Assembly (NCBI GenBank): GCA_025060505.1
Contig: JANXBU010000001.1
Coordinates: forward strand, 62,001 to 126,000
DNA from: Candidatus Calescibacterium sp.
Lineage (GTDB): Bacteria; Calescibacteriota; Calescibacteriia; Calescibacteriales; Calescibacteriaceae
Direction of reading: 5' to 3'
Length of the DNA: 64,000 nt
The notes beneath the pieces were generated by a model. That model ran no database searches, was not told the origin of the DNA, and saw only the letters and a list, made by a program, of their open reading frames with translations. This document shows, piece by piece, positions 18,896-49,124 of this stretch. Both the position numbers and the translations under genes were made by a program. Positions within the stretch are counted from its first letter, which is position 1; the number at the start of each line of letters is the position of its first letter.

Positions 18896-18909
18896 GAGTA
18901 GTGCTACTC
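18896..18909. promoter_or_regulatory. Palindrome over the proposed start of the membrane-protein gene
   Basis: GAGTAG and CTACTC are exact reverse complements around TG, and the element covers the GTG proposed as the start codon. It could be an operator, or a hairpin that masks translation, or chance. Confidence 0.3.
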
Positions 18910-19500
18910 ATTTTCATAGTCTATCTTTTAATTAACCAGAACTTACCACTTACTCAACAATCATTCCACTGCTGTTTGGCCAACAAAGAACAACAAAATC
19001 CTCATTACTCGGAATTCCCTGGAATTTCTTATCAGTATGAACCTTCTGTATCAGATGAGATAAAATATAACGGTGTGAAGTTCTACGAGTTTCCTCTGAT
19101 TCTTTTTGGTTCAGTATTAGGTGCTGCCTTCGGATTTGTGAAGACATATTTCAGTTCGCTAGATTTTTACGGCTCATTGCTTCAAAATTCGGATATAAAA
19201 GATAAATCCTCTGAGAGAGTTTTCAAAATTCCAGAATCATTTTCAATTTTTACAGCTTGGCTTGTTGGTCTCTCCACAGGTTCAACTGCTGGAGCTTATT
19301 TCACATATGACTTTGTTTTGAAGAAAGAAAAAAAGAGCATATTTGTGCCTTTGATTTCTTCGTTTGTTGGCTCTGCTGCTGGTATTGTTGGATGGACTGC
19401 TATCCGACCACAAAGGTTCAGCAAAACAACCCAAAATATCATAGCTTATTCTTTATTGATGCTTCCACCAACTCTATGCTCAATCTCTTTACTCTTTTGA
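18901..19500 (+). CDS. Unrecognised membrane protein with glycine-rich helices
   Basis: I do not recognise this 199-residue protein. It starts with a hydrophobic segment that may be a signal or a membrane anchor. A polar stretch with a Cys-Cys pair follows, then four hydrophobic segments, three of which contain small-residue patterns (GSVLGAAFG, GLSTGSTAGA, GSAAGIVG) that allow tight helix packing. The GTG start at 18901 has no good ribosome site and sits inside a perfect palindrome, so the true start may differ. It lies between an acyl-CoA dehydrogenase and a convergent peptidase gene, and neither suggests a role. Confidence 0.6.
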   Translation: MLLIFIVYLLINQNLPLTQQSFHCCLANKEQQNPHYSEFPGISYQYEPSVSDEIKYNGVKFYEFPLILFGSVLGAAFGFVKTYFSSLDFYGSLLQNSDIKDKSSERVFKIPESFSIFTAWLVGLSTGSTAGAYFTYDFVLKKEKKSIFVPLISSFVGSAAGIVGWTAIRPQRFSKTTQNIIAYSLLMLPPTLCSISLLF

Positions 19501-22660: not shown

Positions 22661-22672
22661 TTTTTTAGATTG

Positions 22673-22969
22673 ATGATATTTTTGGACCTCATAAAACCCC
22701 ACATTTTCATTCTTTACATTTTCATTCTTTCAATTGGTTTTTCTAATGCATGCATTACTGCTACAACTTCGGAAAACTGCGAAAAGGTTTATTATAAGGA
22801 TTTCGATAGAGATAGATTTTCGGACGGTATAACTTCTTGTTCTCAGGATCCTGGTTTTTATTCAGAAGAAGAACTCATCTCAACTTTCGGTGATTGTGAT
22901 GATACAAACAATATGGTTTATCCAGATTCACCCACACAATCTTGTCCCATTCCTCAACAGAGCAGATGA
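22673..22969 (+). CDS. Small secreted MopE-like calcium-binding protein
   Basis: This is a 98-residue protein. A hydrophobic N-terminus ending near SNAC is a signal peptide and may be a lipobox. The mature part holds YYKDFDRDRFSDG and GDCDDTNNMVYP, the Asp-rich motif of MopE/thrombospondin-3-type proteins, here as a single copy with six or so cysteines. Larger relatives carry many such repeats and bind calcium or copper at the surface. This one ends soon after the motif, so it could be a natural mini-protein or a truncated relic. The ATG at 22673 is preferred over TTG 22670. No clear ribosome site is seen; it may be cotranscribed with lepA. Confidence 0.65.
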   Translation: MIFLDLIKPHIFILYIFILSIGFSNACITATTSENCEKVYYKDFDRDRFSDGITSCSQDPGFYSEEELISTFGDCDDTNNMVYPDSPTQSCPIPQQSR

Positions 22970-23169
22970 TTTATGAATGGAAAAGTATTAGGGCAATTTT
23001 ATGAAATTTTGAAGCAATTTTTCCGCAAATCGAAGATCTGTTTTTTGAAATTGGAAAAAATTCTGAAAAACTAAACTAAAATGAAAATTTTCCGATTAAG
23101 ATACAGGGGTAAAGTTTATTTTTTACACATATATGGTGATTATACGATACCGCATTACCTTTCACCCGC

Positions 23170-23191
23170 ATGGTACCACATTGAGTACCAT
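23170..23191. repeat. 7-bp inverted repeat upstream of the orphan cluster
   Basis: ATGGTAC (23170-23176) and GTACCAT (23185-23191) are exact reverse complements with an 8-base spacer. The arm spacing is suitable for a dimeric regulator. Confidence 0.4.
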
Positions 23192-23267
23192 TGGATTCAA
23201 TATGAAATATATACCCGCAATCAGTATGTACTCTTTGGAAAATCTTTTGTAGGTATCAGATAGTATA

Positions 23268-23287
23268 TTATTAGTAGTTATTAGTAG
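23268..23287. repeat. Perfect tandem decamer repeat, possible operator
   Basis: TTATTAGTAG occurs twice without a gap, which places the copies one helical turn apart. It is about 120 bases before the first gene of the orphan cluster, in the likely promoter region. Confidence 0.5.
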
Positions 23288-23298
23288 AATTATACAGA

Positions 23299-23347
23299 AC
23301 GGGGATATCCGAGACGGGGTAAAAATATTTTCTTGAATCCAACGGGG
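23299..23347 (+). repeat. Three ACGGGG boxes in the leader
   Basis: ACGGGG occurs at 23299, 23314 and 23342, striking in AT-rich sequence. The boxes lie between the tandem decamer and the ribosome site, so they may be in the transcript leader. Function is unknown. Confidence 0.35.
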
Positions 23348-23405
23348 AACACATTTGTTTAGATGATATCTTTGAACAAAATTAAAATAAAAGGAGGTAA
23401 AAACT

Positions 23406-24032
23406 ATGCAAAGGGTTAGTTTATACGATGACGAACCATATAGAATAACCTTAAAGAAAATTGTCGGTAAAGATGGAATATACTACTGTGATCAAAGGAA
23501 AGTCGGAAGAGCTTTGAAGGAATACTTTCGTGAATCTATTGAGGAAACGATCTATAATATCATCAACGGGGAGAAGTATTTCTCTTTTAGTTTTAACAAA
23601 GATTACTCGCATAATAATCTGATCCTTAAAGCGAGACATGGTATTTCAGTTTTCAAACTAGATCTTCTTAAAGCTGCGGATTTCAGCTGGGATATCAATG
23701 AGCTTTTCGATAAGTTTCAGTCTGCCGTTAATTTTTTTGAGAAAAAGCTGGTCTATCGTAAAGGTACTTTGGGGCTTCGCTTTTATATTCCTGAAAAAAT
23801 TGATATGGTTGAATTTAATTATGATATATATTTCTCGCTTTCATTTGCTAGCGAGAACGCATGTCTTACGCGTAGTAATAGAAGCTGGTATGTAAGATTT
23901 GTAAATCTCTGTATTACAGAGGGAGTAAATGTAGACAAGCTGGTTCAGGAAATTGATAAAGTAATTTCTCCGGAAATAAGTAAGTTGTATCAGGCCGTTG
24001 AGCTTTTTCTTGAAAGTTTTAAAGCATCATAA
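23406..24032 (+). CDS. Unrecognised protein, first gene of five-gene orphan cluster
   Basis: I recognise no family in this 208-residue protein. It has no signal peptide or membrane helix. It is mixed alpha/beta by eye, with many aromatic residues (YYCDQRKVG, YFSFSFNKDY, FYIPEKIDM) and a helical C-terminus (KLVQEIDKVISPEISKLYQAVELF). A strong ribosome site, AAAAGGAGG, precedes the ATG, so it is very probably translated. It heads a run of five same-strand genes ending at a tRNA gene, preceded by a repeat-rich leader. The two membrane proteins that follow suggest a membrane-linked complex. Confidence 0.75.
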   Translation: MQRVSLYDDEPYRITLKKIVGKDGIYYCDQRKVGRALKEYFRESIEETIYNIINGEKYFSFSFNKDYSHNNLILKARHGISVFKLDLLKAADFSWDINELFDKFQSAVNFFEKKLVYRKGTLGLRFYIPEKIDMVEFNYDIYFSLSFASENACLTRSNRSWYVRFVNLCITEGVNVDKLVQEIDKVISPEISKLYQAVELFLESFKAS

Positions 24033-24061
24033 ATTGTTCGGATGATTCGTGACATAAGGTT

Positions 24062-24604
24062 ATGAATGAGTTGTTTGAAATAAATATATTTGCTGTGATT
24101 TTTCTGCTTGTAATCATTGGTCTTATGACAAATTACATTTTGTTTGGAATAACTCTATCTGCAGTGGTTTTGACTGTTCCTTGGATTTTCATATCGTATA
24201 GCTTAGATCTTCAGTGGTATTGGTATCTTTTTCCAATCGGTCTTTCGCTTGCATCTGTTTTGGTGTTTTGGGCTGGTCCTGTGTTGACATTTCATCTTAT
24301 ATTTGAACTCGCTTTCAGAAACAAATTGTCTTCACTTCTCAGAACAATCATTCCATATGCCATAGTATCGTATGTGTATTCTCGTGGAGAAATGATAGGC
24401 ATTTTTATCTCATCGCTTTTCTGGCATATTGTTTCTTCCATTTTGATCTCCATTTTTGTAGCAGCTGTTTTATCTGAGCATATCACAGGTGGCAAGCTGG
24501 CCTTGATTTTCTTTGTTGTTCTTATTTTTCTTCTCGTTGTTGGATACTCCACAAATGTAAGGGTATTTACTCTGCTTGTGATGGATCTGATGAAAAAGAA
24601 ATAA
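24062..24604 (+). CDS. Unrecognised polytopic membrane protein A of orphan cluster
   Basis: This 180-residue protein is almost wholly hydrophobic, with about five membrane segments and a basic C-terminus (MDLMKKK). No family is recognised. It is clearly related to the next gene: shared positions include NY in the first helix, L-x-WY followed by a P-rich helix (FPIGLSL), a WH pair (FWHIVSSIL) and GYSTNVRVF near the end. The ribosome site is weak (TAAGG), unlike its neighbours, so it may be translated by coupling. It is probably an inner-membrane partner of the adjacent soluble proteins. Confidence 0.75.
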   Translation: MNELFEINIFAVIFLLVIIGLMTNYILFGITLSAVVLTVPWIFISYSLDLQWYWYLFPIGLSLASVLVFWAGPVLTFHLIFELAFRNKLSSLLRTIIPYAIVSYVYSRGEMIGIFISSLFWHIVSSILISIFVAAVLSEHITGGKLALIFFVVLIFLLVVGYSTNVRVFTLLVMDLMKKK

Positions 24605-24636
24605 AATTTCCGCAATAAACAAAGGAGGAGATAGAG

Positions 24637-25149
24637 ATGGAGCAGAGCCTTGGAATTGAAAAGCAGTTTGAAGAATTTCTGCGGAAGCTCAGTGACCCGG
24701 TGGTTTTGGTCTTTGTTTTGGCAGCTTTTGTAGTTCTGTTTTCCAACTACTTTGTAATACTTGTTGATTACTTGTCTTTGAGGTTTCTTGTAATCTGGAT
24801 TCCAATTGTTATTTTGCTCAAACTCAAGTGGTATTTTGTTTTTGTTCCCATTGCTCTGAAGCTTGTTAAAGTTATCTGGACATTGCCGATATTTGTTCTA
24901 AAAGACCGTAGAAAAATTGCTATCTTCTGGCATGTCATTGTATCTTTTGGAGCTTTTCTGATCACGCTTCGTATTACTCCATCATATTTGGCTTCAGGAT
25001 TGTTTCTTCTTTGTTCTTTGGTTCTTGGATACTGGGCTAACGTTACTATCTTTGAAACAGCTTCAAAATGGACTTATCTTGAAGAATCAGGTCAGAAATC
25101 GAATCAATCTGGGGTGCAAAATCATCAGATACAGAAGGTAAATTTGTAA
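24637..25149 (+). CDS. Unrecognised polytopic membrane protein B, paralogue of A
   Basis: This 170-residue protein has a short amphipathic N-terminus, four or five membrane segments and a hydrophilic Gln/Asn/Ser-rich tail. It matches the preceding gene product at NYF, LKWYFVFVPIAL, FWHVIVSFG and GYWANVTIF, so the pair arose by duplication. The charged loop KDRRKI between helices is probably cytoplasmic. The ribosome site AAAGGAGGAG is strong. The tandem membrane paralogues probably form a heteromeric complex. Function is unknown. Confidence 0.75.
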   Translation: MEQSLGIEKQFEEFLRKLSDPVVLVFVLAAFVVLFSNYFVILVDYLSLRFLVIWIPIVILLKLKWYFVFVPIALKLVKVIWTLPIFVLKDRRKIAIFWHVIVSFGAFLITLRITPSYLASGLFLLCSLVLGYWANVTIFETASKWTYLEESGQKSNQSGVQNHQIQKVNL

Positions 25150-25164
25150 AAGGAGGTCGGGTCT

Positions 25165-25599
25165 ATGGACTCAGAGGAAAAATGGATACCGAAATTCAGA
25201 AGAAAACTTACGGTATCGCAGGTTGAAGAACTGATGGAACATAGAGAATATAGATTTATGCAATATTTCAGCTGTTTTATAGATGATAGCGATTATGTAA
25301 AGTTTATAGAAGAGGGGATAGATCCGAGATATCTGAAAGATTTCAAAAAGTATGTAGAAATGATTCGTAAGATCAAAAACATAGCACAGAAGGTACTCTC
25401 TTCTTACGGTATAGAAAAGATATTGTATATGGATATTTCATATTATTCGGTAGATTCTATAATATTTATTTACAAAAACAAGATTATTGAGATAGTTCTA
25501 TGTATTAATTCTGAGGATATAGAAATAGATCTTGAAGATAGAATAGAAGAAGAGCTGATACGCGTAGGCATTATATCTGAAGAGAGAGCGGATACTTGA
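25165..25599 (+). CDS. Unrecognised soluble protein of orphan cluster
   Basis: I recognise no family in this 144-residue acidic protein. The first half is charged and helical (VSQVEELMEHREYRFMQYF, then IDPRYLKDFKKYVEMIRK). The second half alternates hydrophobic strands (ILYMDISYYSVDSIIFIYK) and ends in an acidic helix. There is no signal peptide. AAAAGGAGG precedes the ATG at good distance, and the preceding gene ends 15 bases upstream, so it is in the same operon. It may be a cytoplasmic partner of the membrane pair. Confidence 0.72.
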   Translation: MDSEEKWIPKFRRKLTVSQVEELMEHREYRFMQYFSCFIDDSDYVKFIEEGIDPRYLKDFKKYVEMIRKIKNIAQKVLSSYGIEKILYMDISYYSVDSIIFIYKNKIIEIVLCINSEDIEIDLEDRIEEELIRVGIISEERADT

Positions 25600-25639
25600 A
25601 ATTTATCATACCTGAAAAAAATAAAAGGAGGTCAATCGT

Positions 25640-26110
25640 ATGCTTGAGGATGTAAAGAATGATTTAGAGGAGCTAGAAAGGTTGATTTCAGAGAGCTCTG
25701 AGCTATACATAGCTGAAACAGATGCTGAGAAAGAAAGGTATGGTTCTGGCAAAATTGATACACAGATCTACATCTTGGATATAGAATCAATACCTTTTGT
25801 TCATCTGAGATATTCTGATAATCTTCTGTTGGGTTTGGTTAAGCATTCGCGGTACAGATATGTCACTTTGAGCTTCACCATAATAGAATATGAATACACA
25901 GGAGGTGGTTGGTATAGTTGGAAACATATTCTTGTTGTTTCCTCCGGGCCATTTATGCTATGGAGAGAGTATGAGAAGGTAAAAGAGTACGATAGAGAGA
26001 AAGAAGAAAAAAGAAAAGGTTCGATAGTTTTTTCAGAATGGATATGCAAAAGTGATCTGAGAGACAAAATACAAAGATACGAGAACTTCAGTTTTATTGA
26101 GAAAGAGTGA
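25640..26110 (+). CDS. Unrecognised soluble protein, last gene of orphan cluster
   Basis: I recognise no family in this 156-residue protein. It has a helical acidic N-terminus (LEDVKNDLEELERLISESS) and a strand-rich middle (VTLSFTIIEYEYTGGGWYS). A highly charged helix follows (YEKVKEYDREKEEKRKG). There is no signal peptide or membrane helix. A strong AAAAGGAGG site lies upstream. The gene ends 108 bases before tRNA-Arg. It belongs with the four preceding genes by direction and spacing. Confidence 0.72.
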   Translation: MLEDVKNDLEELERLISESSELYIAETDAEKERYGSGKIDTQIYILDIESIPFVHLRYSDNLLLGLVKHSRYRYVTLSFTIIEYEYTGGGWYSWKHILVVSSGPFMLWREYEKVKEYDREKEEKRKGSIVFSEWICKSDLRDKIQRYENFSFIEKE

Positions 26111-26218: not shown

Positions 26219-26294
26219 GTCCCTGTAGCTCAGAAGGAAGAGCACGGTCCTCCTAAGTCCGGGGTCGCGGGTTCAAATCCCGCCAGGGACACCA
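26219..26294 (+). tRNA. tRNA-Arg (CCT anticodon)
   Basis: The acceptor stem GTCCCTG pairs perfectly with CAGGGAC (26284-26290), followed by discriminator A and an encoded CCA. The D arm is GCTC/GAGC, the anticodon loop CTCCTAA carries CCT, and the T arm GCGGG-TTCAAAT-CCCGC is perfect. The anticodon stem CGGTC/GTCCG has one T-T mismatch next to the loop-closing pair. It reads AGG arginine codons. The total is 76 bases. Confidence 0.95.
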
Positions 26295-26305
26295 AATTTT
26301 CACAT

Positions 26306-27262
26306 TTGCCCAAAAATATAGCTAAAATAGGTAGGTTTCGCCTTATACTTCACAAAGCCAACTTCTATATCGTTGAGTTGGAAAAAAACTATTGGCATCA
26401 GGAAGTACTCGGTCTTGAGTTTAGACCTTCTGTAAGATGGGAGATGAAAATAACTTTGACTCATATTGTTTTGTTTTTCCTTACATTCCTTACAACAACC
26501 GCTGCTGGAGCAATGATGCAAGGTTACTCACCGATTTCCCGTGATCTTATAAAAGGTGTTGTTTTTTCTGCTCCTTTACTATTTATTCTTGTTGCTCACG
26601 AAATGGGACACATTTTTGCTCTTTGGAAATATGGGATAAGAAGTTCGTTTCCTTATTTCATACCTGCTCCAAATATAATAGGAACTTTTGGTGCAATTAT
26701 GGTTCTTCGTGAACGAATTGCTGAGTCTTCAAAAATACTCAAAGTTGGTGCAGCTGGTCCCATAGCTGGGTTTATTGCCGCTATACCTGTAGCGATCATA
26801 GGTTTGAAAATCTCATCTGTTGTAGCTCCTGATCAGGCGAGCGGAGAGGGGATGATAAAATTGGGTTCTCCTTTGATATTCTCAATTATGGAAAAGCTGT
26901 TTGCGGAAGGCAAGGAAGGAGAGATATTACTTCACCCAGTTGCTTTTGCTGGTTGGATTGGTTTTTTTGTCACATCTATGAATCTCATACCTGTCGGTCA
27001 GACAGATGGAGGACATATAGTTTTCTCACTATTTCCTTCTTTACATAGACTCTTATCTTTTGTTGTTTCTTTTGTTCTTCTTGTCATAGGTTTTCTTTTC
27101 TGGTATGGATGGATAATTTGGGGAGTTCTGACTCTTCTTCTTGGAATCAGAGCAAGTCCATATATTCCGCAAAGAGATATTGGCTCAAAGGAAAAATTTA
27201 TAGCATTTTTATCTCTTTTGATTTTTGTTTTATCTTTTATTCTTGTCCCAATTCAAGTCTGA
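26306..27262 (+). CDS. Site-2-protease-family (M50) intramembrane metalloprotease
   Basis: This polytopic membrane protein has the zinc motif HEMGH and the second motif NLIPVGQTDGGH, which supplies the third ligand. Between them lies the family GPIAGF region. Site-2 proteases cut membrane-bound anti-sigma factors or signal-peptide remnants. The total is 318 residues from the TTG at 26306, only 12 bases beyond the tRNA. The start is uncertain: ATG 26444, just before the first helix, would give a 273-residue protein. No sigma or anti-sigma gene is adjacent. The ABC ATPase gene follows by 20 bases. Confidence 0.88.
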   Translation: MPKNIAKIGRFRLILHKANFYIVELEKNYWHQEVLGLEFRPSVRWEMKITLTHIVLFFLTFLTTTAAGAMMQGYSPISRDLIKGVVFSAPLLFILVAHEMGHIFALWKYGIRSSFPYFIPAPNIIGTFGAIMVLRERIAESSKILKVGAAGPIAGFIAAIPVAIIGLKISSVVAPDQASGEGMIKLGSPLIFSIMEKLFAEGKEGEILLHPVAFAGWIGFFVTSMNLIPVGQTDGGHIVFSLFPSLHRLLSFVVSFVLLVIGFLFWYGWIIWGVLTLLLGIRASPYIPQRDIGSKEKFIAFLSLLIFVLSFILVPIQV

Positions 27263-42763: not shown

Positions 42764-43615
42764 TCACAAAGGAAGCTGATACGAGTAGTAAATCTTTATA
42801 TCTTTTTCTTTTGCATATTTTTCAATCTCTTCGGTTGTTGTATAAGTGACTATAATGAATAACTTGGGTCCTGGAAAGAGTTCATTGAATATTTTTCTTC
42901 TGTTTATGAATTTATCAACATCCTTTTTCTTCAATTGAGATTTAGCTTCGCCTATTATCCATATATCCTGATTGTCTTTTGTACCCCTTCCAAGAATATT
43001 TATTTCGATTCTTCCTCCTTTGTATGGCATGTTTTTTCTAATCAAACGGGAAGTAACTTTTATACCGAAGTCCTCTTCAAGGAGTTTTGGGAGTCCAAAG
43101 TATGAACGGTCTTCAAGAATGTATCCAACAGTGTGAGATACATTCCCAAGTTCTTTGCGAGTTTTTTTGTGTTCTTCTGTAAGCTCACGTAGTGCTTTGT
43201 CGGTTCTTTTTTGAGCTTCAGCGAGTTCATTTACTCTCTGTTCAGTTCTTTTTTGGGCTTCAGCGAGTTCATTTACTCTCTGTTCAGTTCTTTTTTGGGC
43301 TTCAGCGAGTTCTTCAACCTTTTTAGCAAGGATTTCAACTCTTTGTTCAGTTCTTTTTTGGGCTTCAGCGAGTTCATTTACTCTCTGTTCAGTTCTTTTT
43401 TGGGCTTCAGCGAGTTCTTTTATATCTTTTGAAATTTCTGCTACAATTGCTTTAAGTTCATTGAAATCACTAGCTTTAACAAGTTCGTTCAGCAGATTGA
43501 CTAAATCTTCTAACGCTTTAGCTTGCTCAGGAGTAAACACTTCCTTGATCTGCTGCAATAATTTTTCTACCTTTGTCATTTTATTTTTAAAAGATACATT
43601 AATTATTTGTTGCAT
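42764..43615 (-). CDS. Coiled-coil protein with 14-residue repeats and PD-(D/E)XK nuclease-like C-terminus
   Basis: This is a 283-residue protein. Residues 58-150 or so are a long coiled coil built from near-identical copies of [14 protein letters not shown]. The C-terminal 100 residues hold GRIEINILG and [11 protein letters not shown], which fit the Glu and E-x-K core of the PD-(D/E)XK nuclease fold, as in DUF3782-like proteins common in thermophiles. Whether it cuts nucleic acid is unknown. The start may be ATG 43615 or ATG 43579, and neither has a strong ribosome site. It stands alone and converges on the chemoreceptor gene. Confidence 0.78.
43201..43425. repeat. 42-bp tandem coding repeats
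   Basis: Near-identical 42-base units begin at about 43213, 43255, 43297, 43360 and 43402; the third interval is 63 bases (42+21). They encode the 14-residue coiled-coil repeat. The high nucleotide identity suggests recent expansion. Confidence 0.9.
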
Positions 43616-47742: not shown

Positions 47743-47886
47743 TTTCATAACTACGAACAGGCAGAGATTGTGATTGAAAATCATTACATTTTAATTTTTT
47801 GGAGAATTCTTCTGTTCTGAAAGAAGATGGTTCTTTTTTATTTGGATGGATTTTTTGTTTTTTTATTTGTTTTTGAGAGAAAAGAC

Positions 47887-48000
47887 CTGGGGACGACCTA
47901 CTTTCCCACGCCCGTGCGGACGCAGTATCATCGGCCCTGGGGAGGTTCCCGGTCCTATTCGGAATGGGAAGGCGGTTTTCATCCCCGGTATTGTCCCCAG
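47887..48000 (-). rRNA. rrf: 5S ribosomal RNA (unlinked)
   Basis: Read on the minus strand, the terminal stem CTGGGGAC (48000-47993) pairs exactly with GTCCCCAG (47894-47887). Conserved 5S elements are present in order: CCATTCCGAA, CCGATGATACTG and GTGGGAAAGTAGGTCG. The length is 114 bases. No 23S or 16S gene is adjacent. It is divergent from rpoA and faces the end of an acyl-CoA synthetase gene. The two nearby open frames that cover it are not genes. Confidence 0.93.
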
Positions 48001-48110
48001 ATAAACTTTAATATGCTCACTCTTGTGCAAACATATAAAATTTTCAGAAAAATTTGTAAAAAATATTTGATTGAATTACATAAATACAACTTGATGATGG
48101 AGGTACAATT

Positions 48111-49124
48111 ATGGATATTGTTTATCCAGAAGGAACAAAAATAGATGAAACAGTTCCAGAAAATGTTAGGCATCTTTATCAGAGGTTTTACATCGGACCA
48201 ATAAACAGAGGTTTTGGGCACACCCTTGGTAATTCTCTCAGAAGGGTTCTTCTGAGCTCAATGGAAGGCTATGCTATAATTGCATTGAAAATAGATGGTG
48301 TCCCTCATGAATTTTCTACTATAGAAGGTGTAAGGGATGATGTTGCTTTACTTATATTACATCTGAAAAAAGTCAGACTCAAAATAAAGGGGAATAAGAG
48401 TCTTGTCAGAGCAGAAATAAAGGTAGATAATAGCAAATCACAAACATCATACATTATAAAGGCTTCAGATATTCAGGGACCTGTTGAAGTTATAAATCCA
48501 GATCAGTATATAACAGAGCTTATGCCGAAATACAAATTTAATTGTGAGATCTTTGTTGCAAAAGGCAGAGGATACATTCCTGCTGAAAGAATAGGTTCTA
48601 TTTTCGAACTTCCAGCTGGAGCTATCCCAATTGATGCTATTTTTAATCCAATTGTTAAGGTAAACTATGAAGTTAGAAAGACACTTTACAAAGATAGGGT
48701 AGATTATGATGAGCTCGTGCTAGATATTTGGTCAGATGGAACTATCACTCCGCAGGAAGCTTACGAAGAATCTATAGAAATTTTGACTGATTATCTTGAA
48801 GGACTGAAGAACTATATAGAGCGTGCGGAGTACGAGATGCACAAAAGAGAGATTAAAGTCTCAACTCTTGAAGAATTTCTTTCAAGGAATGTTGAAGAAC
48901 TTAATTTGCCAAGAAAAGCTGCTGATATTCTCCTATCATATAACATCAAGACTGTTAGAGAACTTGTTAAGATGACAGATAAGGAACTTCTTTCTTTCCC
49001 AAGTCTTGGAAGAAGATCTCTGAGAGAAATAAGAGAAGTTCTGAACAGAGCAGGGTTGCGTCTTGGCATGACAGATGAAGATATTCAACAGTTAATTGAA
49101 GCAGAGAAGAAGAGAATAAAATAA
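48111..49124 (+). CDS. rpoA: RNA polymerase alpha subunit
   Basis: This is a 337-residue protein. The N-terminal dimerisation domain contains GFGHTLGNSLRRVLLSSMEG, and the C-terminal domain has LNLPRKAADILLSYNIKTV and SFPSLGRRSLREI, the DNA- and activator-binding helices. The length is normal. GGAGG precedes the ATG. It is followed by rplQ as in most bacteria, but the usual rpsM-rpsK-rpsD genes upstream are replaced by a divergent 5S rRNA gene. Confidence 0.97.
   Translation: MDIVYPEGTKIDETVPENVRHLYQRFYIGPINRGFGHTLGNSLRRVLLSSMEGYAIIALKIDGVPHEFSTIEGVRDDVALLILHLKKVRLKIKGNKSLVRAEIKVDNSKSQTSYIIKASDIQGPVEVINPDQYITELMPKYKFNCEIFVAKGRGYIPAERIGSIFELPAGAIPIDAIFNPIVKVNYEVRKTLYKDRVDYDELVLDIWSDGTITPQEAYEESIEILTDYLEGLKNYIERAEYEMHKREIKVSTLEEFLSRNVEELNLPRKAADILLSYNIKTVRELVKMTDKELLSFPSLGRRSLREIREVLNRAGLRLGMTDEDIQQLIEAEKKRIK

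Follow-up and report, generated by a model that had tools for sequence, protein, structure and literature searches.

A five-gene ORFan operon with a paralogous membrane-protein pair, tentatively read as a horizontally acquired block, in a Candidatus Calescibacterium genome

Do five adjacent genes, none with a recognised family, form one unit, and, if so, is that unit a conserved system of its lineage, a native novelty, or a foreign arrival? This is the question raised by P1–P5 (Table 1), which lie within a window of 64,000 nucleotides, i.e., the whole stretch of DNA that was analysed. Five same-strand genes had been predicted here, and five plus-strand ORFs were indeed found, with intergenic gaps of 29, 32, 15, and 40 nt in order; all five reading frames are intact, and comparison of codon scores across the three plus frames placed the annotated frame best in 5/5 ORFs. 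Hydrophobicity likewise bore out the expected layout of one soluble protein, two polytopic membrane proteins, and two more soluble proteins, with zero hydrophobic segments in P1, P4, and P5; these three display no mutual similarity in sequence comparison.

Table 1. Coordinates (window numbering) of the five genes and their flanking features.
Feature	Position	Strand	Description
leader	22970..23405	+	436 nt; presumed promoter region
P1	23406..24032	+	208 aa, soluble ORFan protein, strong SD
P2	24062..24604	+	180 aa, polytopic membrane protein, about 5 TM, weak SD
P3	24637..25149	+	170 aa, polytopic membrane protein, 4-5 TM, P2 paralogue, strong SD
P4	25165..25599	+	144 aa, soluble ORFan protein, strong SD
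P5	25640..26110	+	156 aa, soluble ORFan protein, strong SD
tRNA-Arg(CCT)	26219-26294	+	directly upstream of M50 protease gene

Translation signals set the locus apart within its genome. The motif AAAGGAGG precedes ORFs 1, 3, 4, and 5, with anti-SD duplex energies of about −13 kcal/mol, and ORF 2 (P2) is without it (−3.8 kcal/mol only); these energies uphold the original prediction of strong sites on four of the five genes. Across the 2.28-Mb genome, 90 AAAGGAGG-N4-9-ATG sites were detected (19 for a reversed control pattern), and nowhere except at P1–P5 do four such sites fall on one strand within 2.25 kb, making this the genome's densest strong-AAAGGAGG cluster. Random site placement yielded an equally dense run in 21/20,000 trials, in what was a post hoc test under a uniform model.

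Synonymous codon use also distinguishes P1–P5 from the other 50 genes of the 64-kb window, which served as the sole background (z=-4.8, 853 codons). The normalised codon score of the five is −0.168, versus −0.008 ± 0.032 when five small window genes were drawn at random 400 times (lowest draw −0.092), and is the lowest among all contiguous window runs of five. Flanking genes (at 22670 and 26441) have normal codon use, such that the atypicality has its edges exactly at the cluster; GC content does not differ between cluster and window. Given the common orientation, the spacing, the genome-unique strong-SD cluster, and a codon atypicality that begins and ends with the cluster, the five genes likely constitute one unit, as had been proposed, and would be carried on one transcript. 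P1–P5 is a genuine, well-delimited ORFan operon.

Two features formerly assigned to this unit fared less well. The leader had been described as repeat-rich, and proved unremarkable: it contains only one 2 x 10-nt tandem repeat plus short imperfect repeats, and its folding z is −1.7. A 60-aa ORF inside it carries no coding signal by codon score, no second copy of note was found in the genome, and an Rfam search of the leader returned neither a riboswitch nor any other RNA. The gene upstream of the leader, at 22670-22969 (+), encodes a small protein that appears to carry a signal sequence and, below threshold, a MopE-like metal-binding motif (E=0.52); inside the 5' end of this gene, two 15-nt units form a perfect tandem repeat. 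At the other border, the tRNA gene had been thought to end the unit. The tRNA-Arg(CCT) and the M50 protease gene that follows it (26219-27262, +) are adjacent in 5/5 family genomes, four of which (from two further genera) have no P1–P5 genes upstream of that tRNA; because the pairing is kept in these four genomes, the tRNA belongs to the downstream block and not to the cluster. This pairing persists while most other nearby gene order is scrambled. Upstream of the tRNA, one genus has a cation-exchanger-like and a PgpA-like gene, and another a glycine-dehydrogenase-like gene (all named by eye); the cation-exchanger gene of the cluster-bearing genome lies on a separate contig, and LepA, upstream of the cluster, has different neighbours in relatives. 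Since gene order is in general poorly conserved, an empty site could not be aligned.

Within the operon, the two membrane proteins are, as judged by sequence comparison, paralogues arisen by tandem duplication. P2 and P3 match each other pairwise at E=8e-6, and their alignment extends along both proteins, interrupted by an internal deletion in P3. Compared with shuffles preserving the hydrophobic pattern, their global score is 7.7 sd higher, a value reached by 0/2000 of these; two other window membrane proteins, taken as a control, give z of 2.2 or less in the same shuffle test. Motifs common to both include (Q/K)WY.....PI, FWH, and GY..NV..F. Such a pair may form a hetero-oligomer. The soluble proteins yielded less to modelling. 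A single-sequence model of P4 reached medium confidence (pLDDT 69, pTM 0.63), its core suggesting a plausible alpha-beta3-alpha arrangement; a structure search with it retrieved only common alpha/beta arrangements and no significant fold match, the best Z of 6.0 falling below the 7-8 that the search tool gives as usual when a model has no clear match. The AF2 model of P1 had a pLDDT of 34.

Are these proteins nonetheless known from elsewhere? Searches of all five products against Pfam, NCBIfam, PADLOC, and PHROGs gave zero usable matches, and phmmer against the PDB with P1, P4, and P5 gave nothing below E 0.5, which agrees with the original statement that no family could be recognised. The best PHROG match of P4, to an unnamed family (E=0.007), was taken as chance. 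Neither tblastn of each protein against phages nor tblastn of P1, P4, and P5 joined against plasmids gave a match at E<=1. Viral contigs were scanned with degenerate patterns for each protein and for all five joined, and GTDB genomes with those for P1 and P5; these scans, which detect close relatives only, gave no confirmed match. These results bear on the proposal that P1–P5 is an integrated virus or plasmid fragment whose genes once served the element (e.g., in membrane, assembly, or host-takeover functions) and are now decaying and useless to the host. Viral accessory genes are typically small ORFans with strong SDs and atypical codons (PMC2718499), a likeness that speaks for it; however, viral hallmarks and PHROG, phage, plasmid, and viral-contig matches are all absent, and five intact frames indicate that no decay is under way. 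We therefore regard this proposal as quite unlikely.

The original prediction had named conserved order in several genomes as the mark of a system, and no conservation in relatives as counting against one; within the searched data, the latter is what was found. P1–P5 are missing from each of the other family genomes examined (4/4), and the gene set did not recur in the wider survey. Individually, P1, P2, and P5 scored credibly only at the window locus in their own genome and 20 others, as did P4 among 60 genomes. A concatenated five-protein query of 386 genomes recovered only itself, at the lower sensitivity that comes with scoring at most two candidates per genome, and a P2/P3 profile run on 193 genomes gave, besides itself, chance-like matches only. 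Weak matches in distant genomes (including those of the P2/P3 profile at E about 1e-3) were short and low-scoring, several running across stops, and were dismissed as chance. With relatives 82-86% complete, absence from a single genome means little; that an assembly gap removed all five genes from all four relatives is unlikely. As far as these sequence searches reach, conservation lends no support to the case for an undescribed system, and the suggested lineage specificity narrows to one genome.

So restricted a distribution could also befit a native, fast-evolving operon of the species or genus, with a role in, e.g., envelope or transport, in which P2/P3 would form a membrane core that the soluble proteins regulate or feed, and the orthologues of which would have diverged past detection or reside in unsampled genomes. 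The tandem duplication and the well-kept operon with its strong SDs suggest selection, the family sample comprises five genomes, all incomplete, with the cluster-bearing genome alone in its genus, and P4 matches the host in codon use. Relatives' versions of the flanking genes are, however, 58-74% identical, such that only very rapid evolution could have erased every trace of similarity in all five genes, and the sharp edges of the codon atypicality also weigh against a native origin. Against acquisition, native genes that are young or evolve fast can show atypical codons too. On balance, we consider a native operon somewhat unlikely.

The reading that we place first, at slightly under an even chance, is of a small accessory ORFan operon, horizontally acquired as one block. 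It would have arrived as cargo of an integrative element or plasmid not yet sampled, or be what is left of one, and would have settled between two ordinary chromosomal neighbourhoods. Its codon use is not uniform: P1 is the most atypical of the five, and P1, P3, and, less clearly, P2 fit one another better than matched window samples do, as though sharing a dialect of their own. Since P4 and P5 stand outside this dialect, the block may be composite. The marks of an integrative mobile element are missing. Reading the ORF translations within and next to the cluster (with profile searches for P1–P5) turned up no gene for an integrase, transposase, replication protein, or capsid, and the 64-kb window contains no repeat of the tRNA 3' end that could mark an att site, beyond a chance-level match with 3 mismatches. 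It is for want of such hallmarks that horizontal acquisition is favoured and no more. Insertion into the tRNA itself was considered and rejected; there is no duplicated tRNA end, and the order upstream of tRNA-Arg varies by genus in any case.

As for what the products of such an acquired block might do, an inner-membrane complex of P1–P5 is possible. P2 and P3 would form a heteromeric inner-membrane assembly, which P1, P4, and P5, located in the cytosol, would join or regulate; the paralogous pair fits the membrane-linked complex that had been suggested, and zero positive evidence was found for any of the accompanying envelope, transport, or defence roles. Defence and conflict systems usually take the form of an acquired, sporadic cassette comprising a membrane pair and soluble partners. 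P1–P5 would have this layout, and could accordingly be imagined as an uncharacterised operon of defence or inter-microbial conflict, with P2/P3 as membrane effectors and the soluble proteins as sensors or regulators. Against this, PADLOC, a match to which would denote a known anti-phage defence system, returned 0 families at E<=1 for the five proteins, no toxin or nuclease signature was seen, and no defence genes were recognised nearby; we deem a defence role highly improbable. An undescribed five-component membrane system, in which three cytosolic proteins partner a heteromer of paralogous membrane proteins, borne on an unsampled mobile element, is in our estimation unlikely.

Loci of this general appearance have been described before. 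Across the 119 genomes of one survey, composition was atypical in 96% of ORFans, and 39% of ORFans belonged to clusters of atypical genes (PMC2718499), many of which are likely integrative elements (Cortez, Forterre, Gribaldo 2009, PMC2718499). In archaeal dark matter islands, for their part, small proteins and membrane proteins are over-represented (Makarova et al. 2014, PMC4158269). P1–P5 resembles the former in being contiguous, compositionally atypical small ORFans without a family (PMC2718499), but numbers just five genes with no integrative-element hallmark, and its atypicality was measured by synonymous codon use, that of the survey by a Markov model. It resembles the latter in being narrowly distributed, small, and uncharacterised, and in including membrane proteins (PMC4158269), but represents one locus of a bacterial genome, whereas that survey was archaeal. 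With contiguous atypical composition and ORFan or narrowly distributed, uncharacterised genes both present, the best reading is that P1–P5 belongs to an already known kind of locus, be it termed a dark matter island or a cluster of atypical genes. Its value resides in being a clean, well-delimited ORFan block with strong translation signals and foreign-looking composition, in a lineage for which few genomes exist. For now, it is one among many such islands; should relatives with the same gene order appear, it would become a tractable unknown membrane system.

Other features of the window merit brief mention. The gene at 18901-19500 (+), about as atypical in codon use as P1–P5, encodes a 199-aa protein for which Pfam gave no match. 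At 42764-43615 (-), a 283-aa coiled-coil protein with repeated sequence units has only a sub-threshold tape-measure match in Pfam, and its C-terminal part may, by eye, be a nuclease-like domain. Lastly, a 5S rRNA gene lies at 47885-48001 (-) (Rfam 74 bits), overlapped on the opposite strand by a 105-aa ORF (47827-48144) that is probably spurious.
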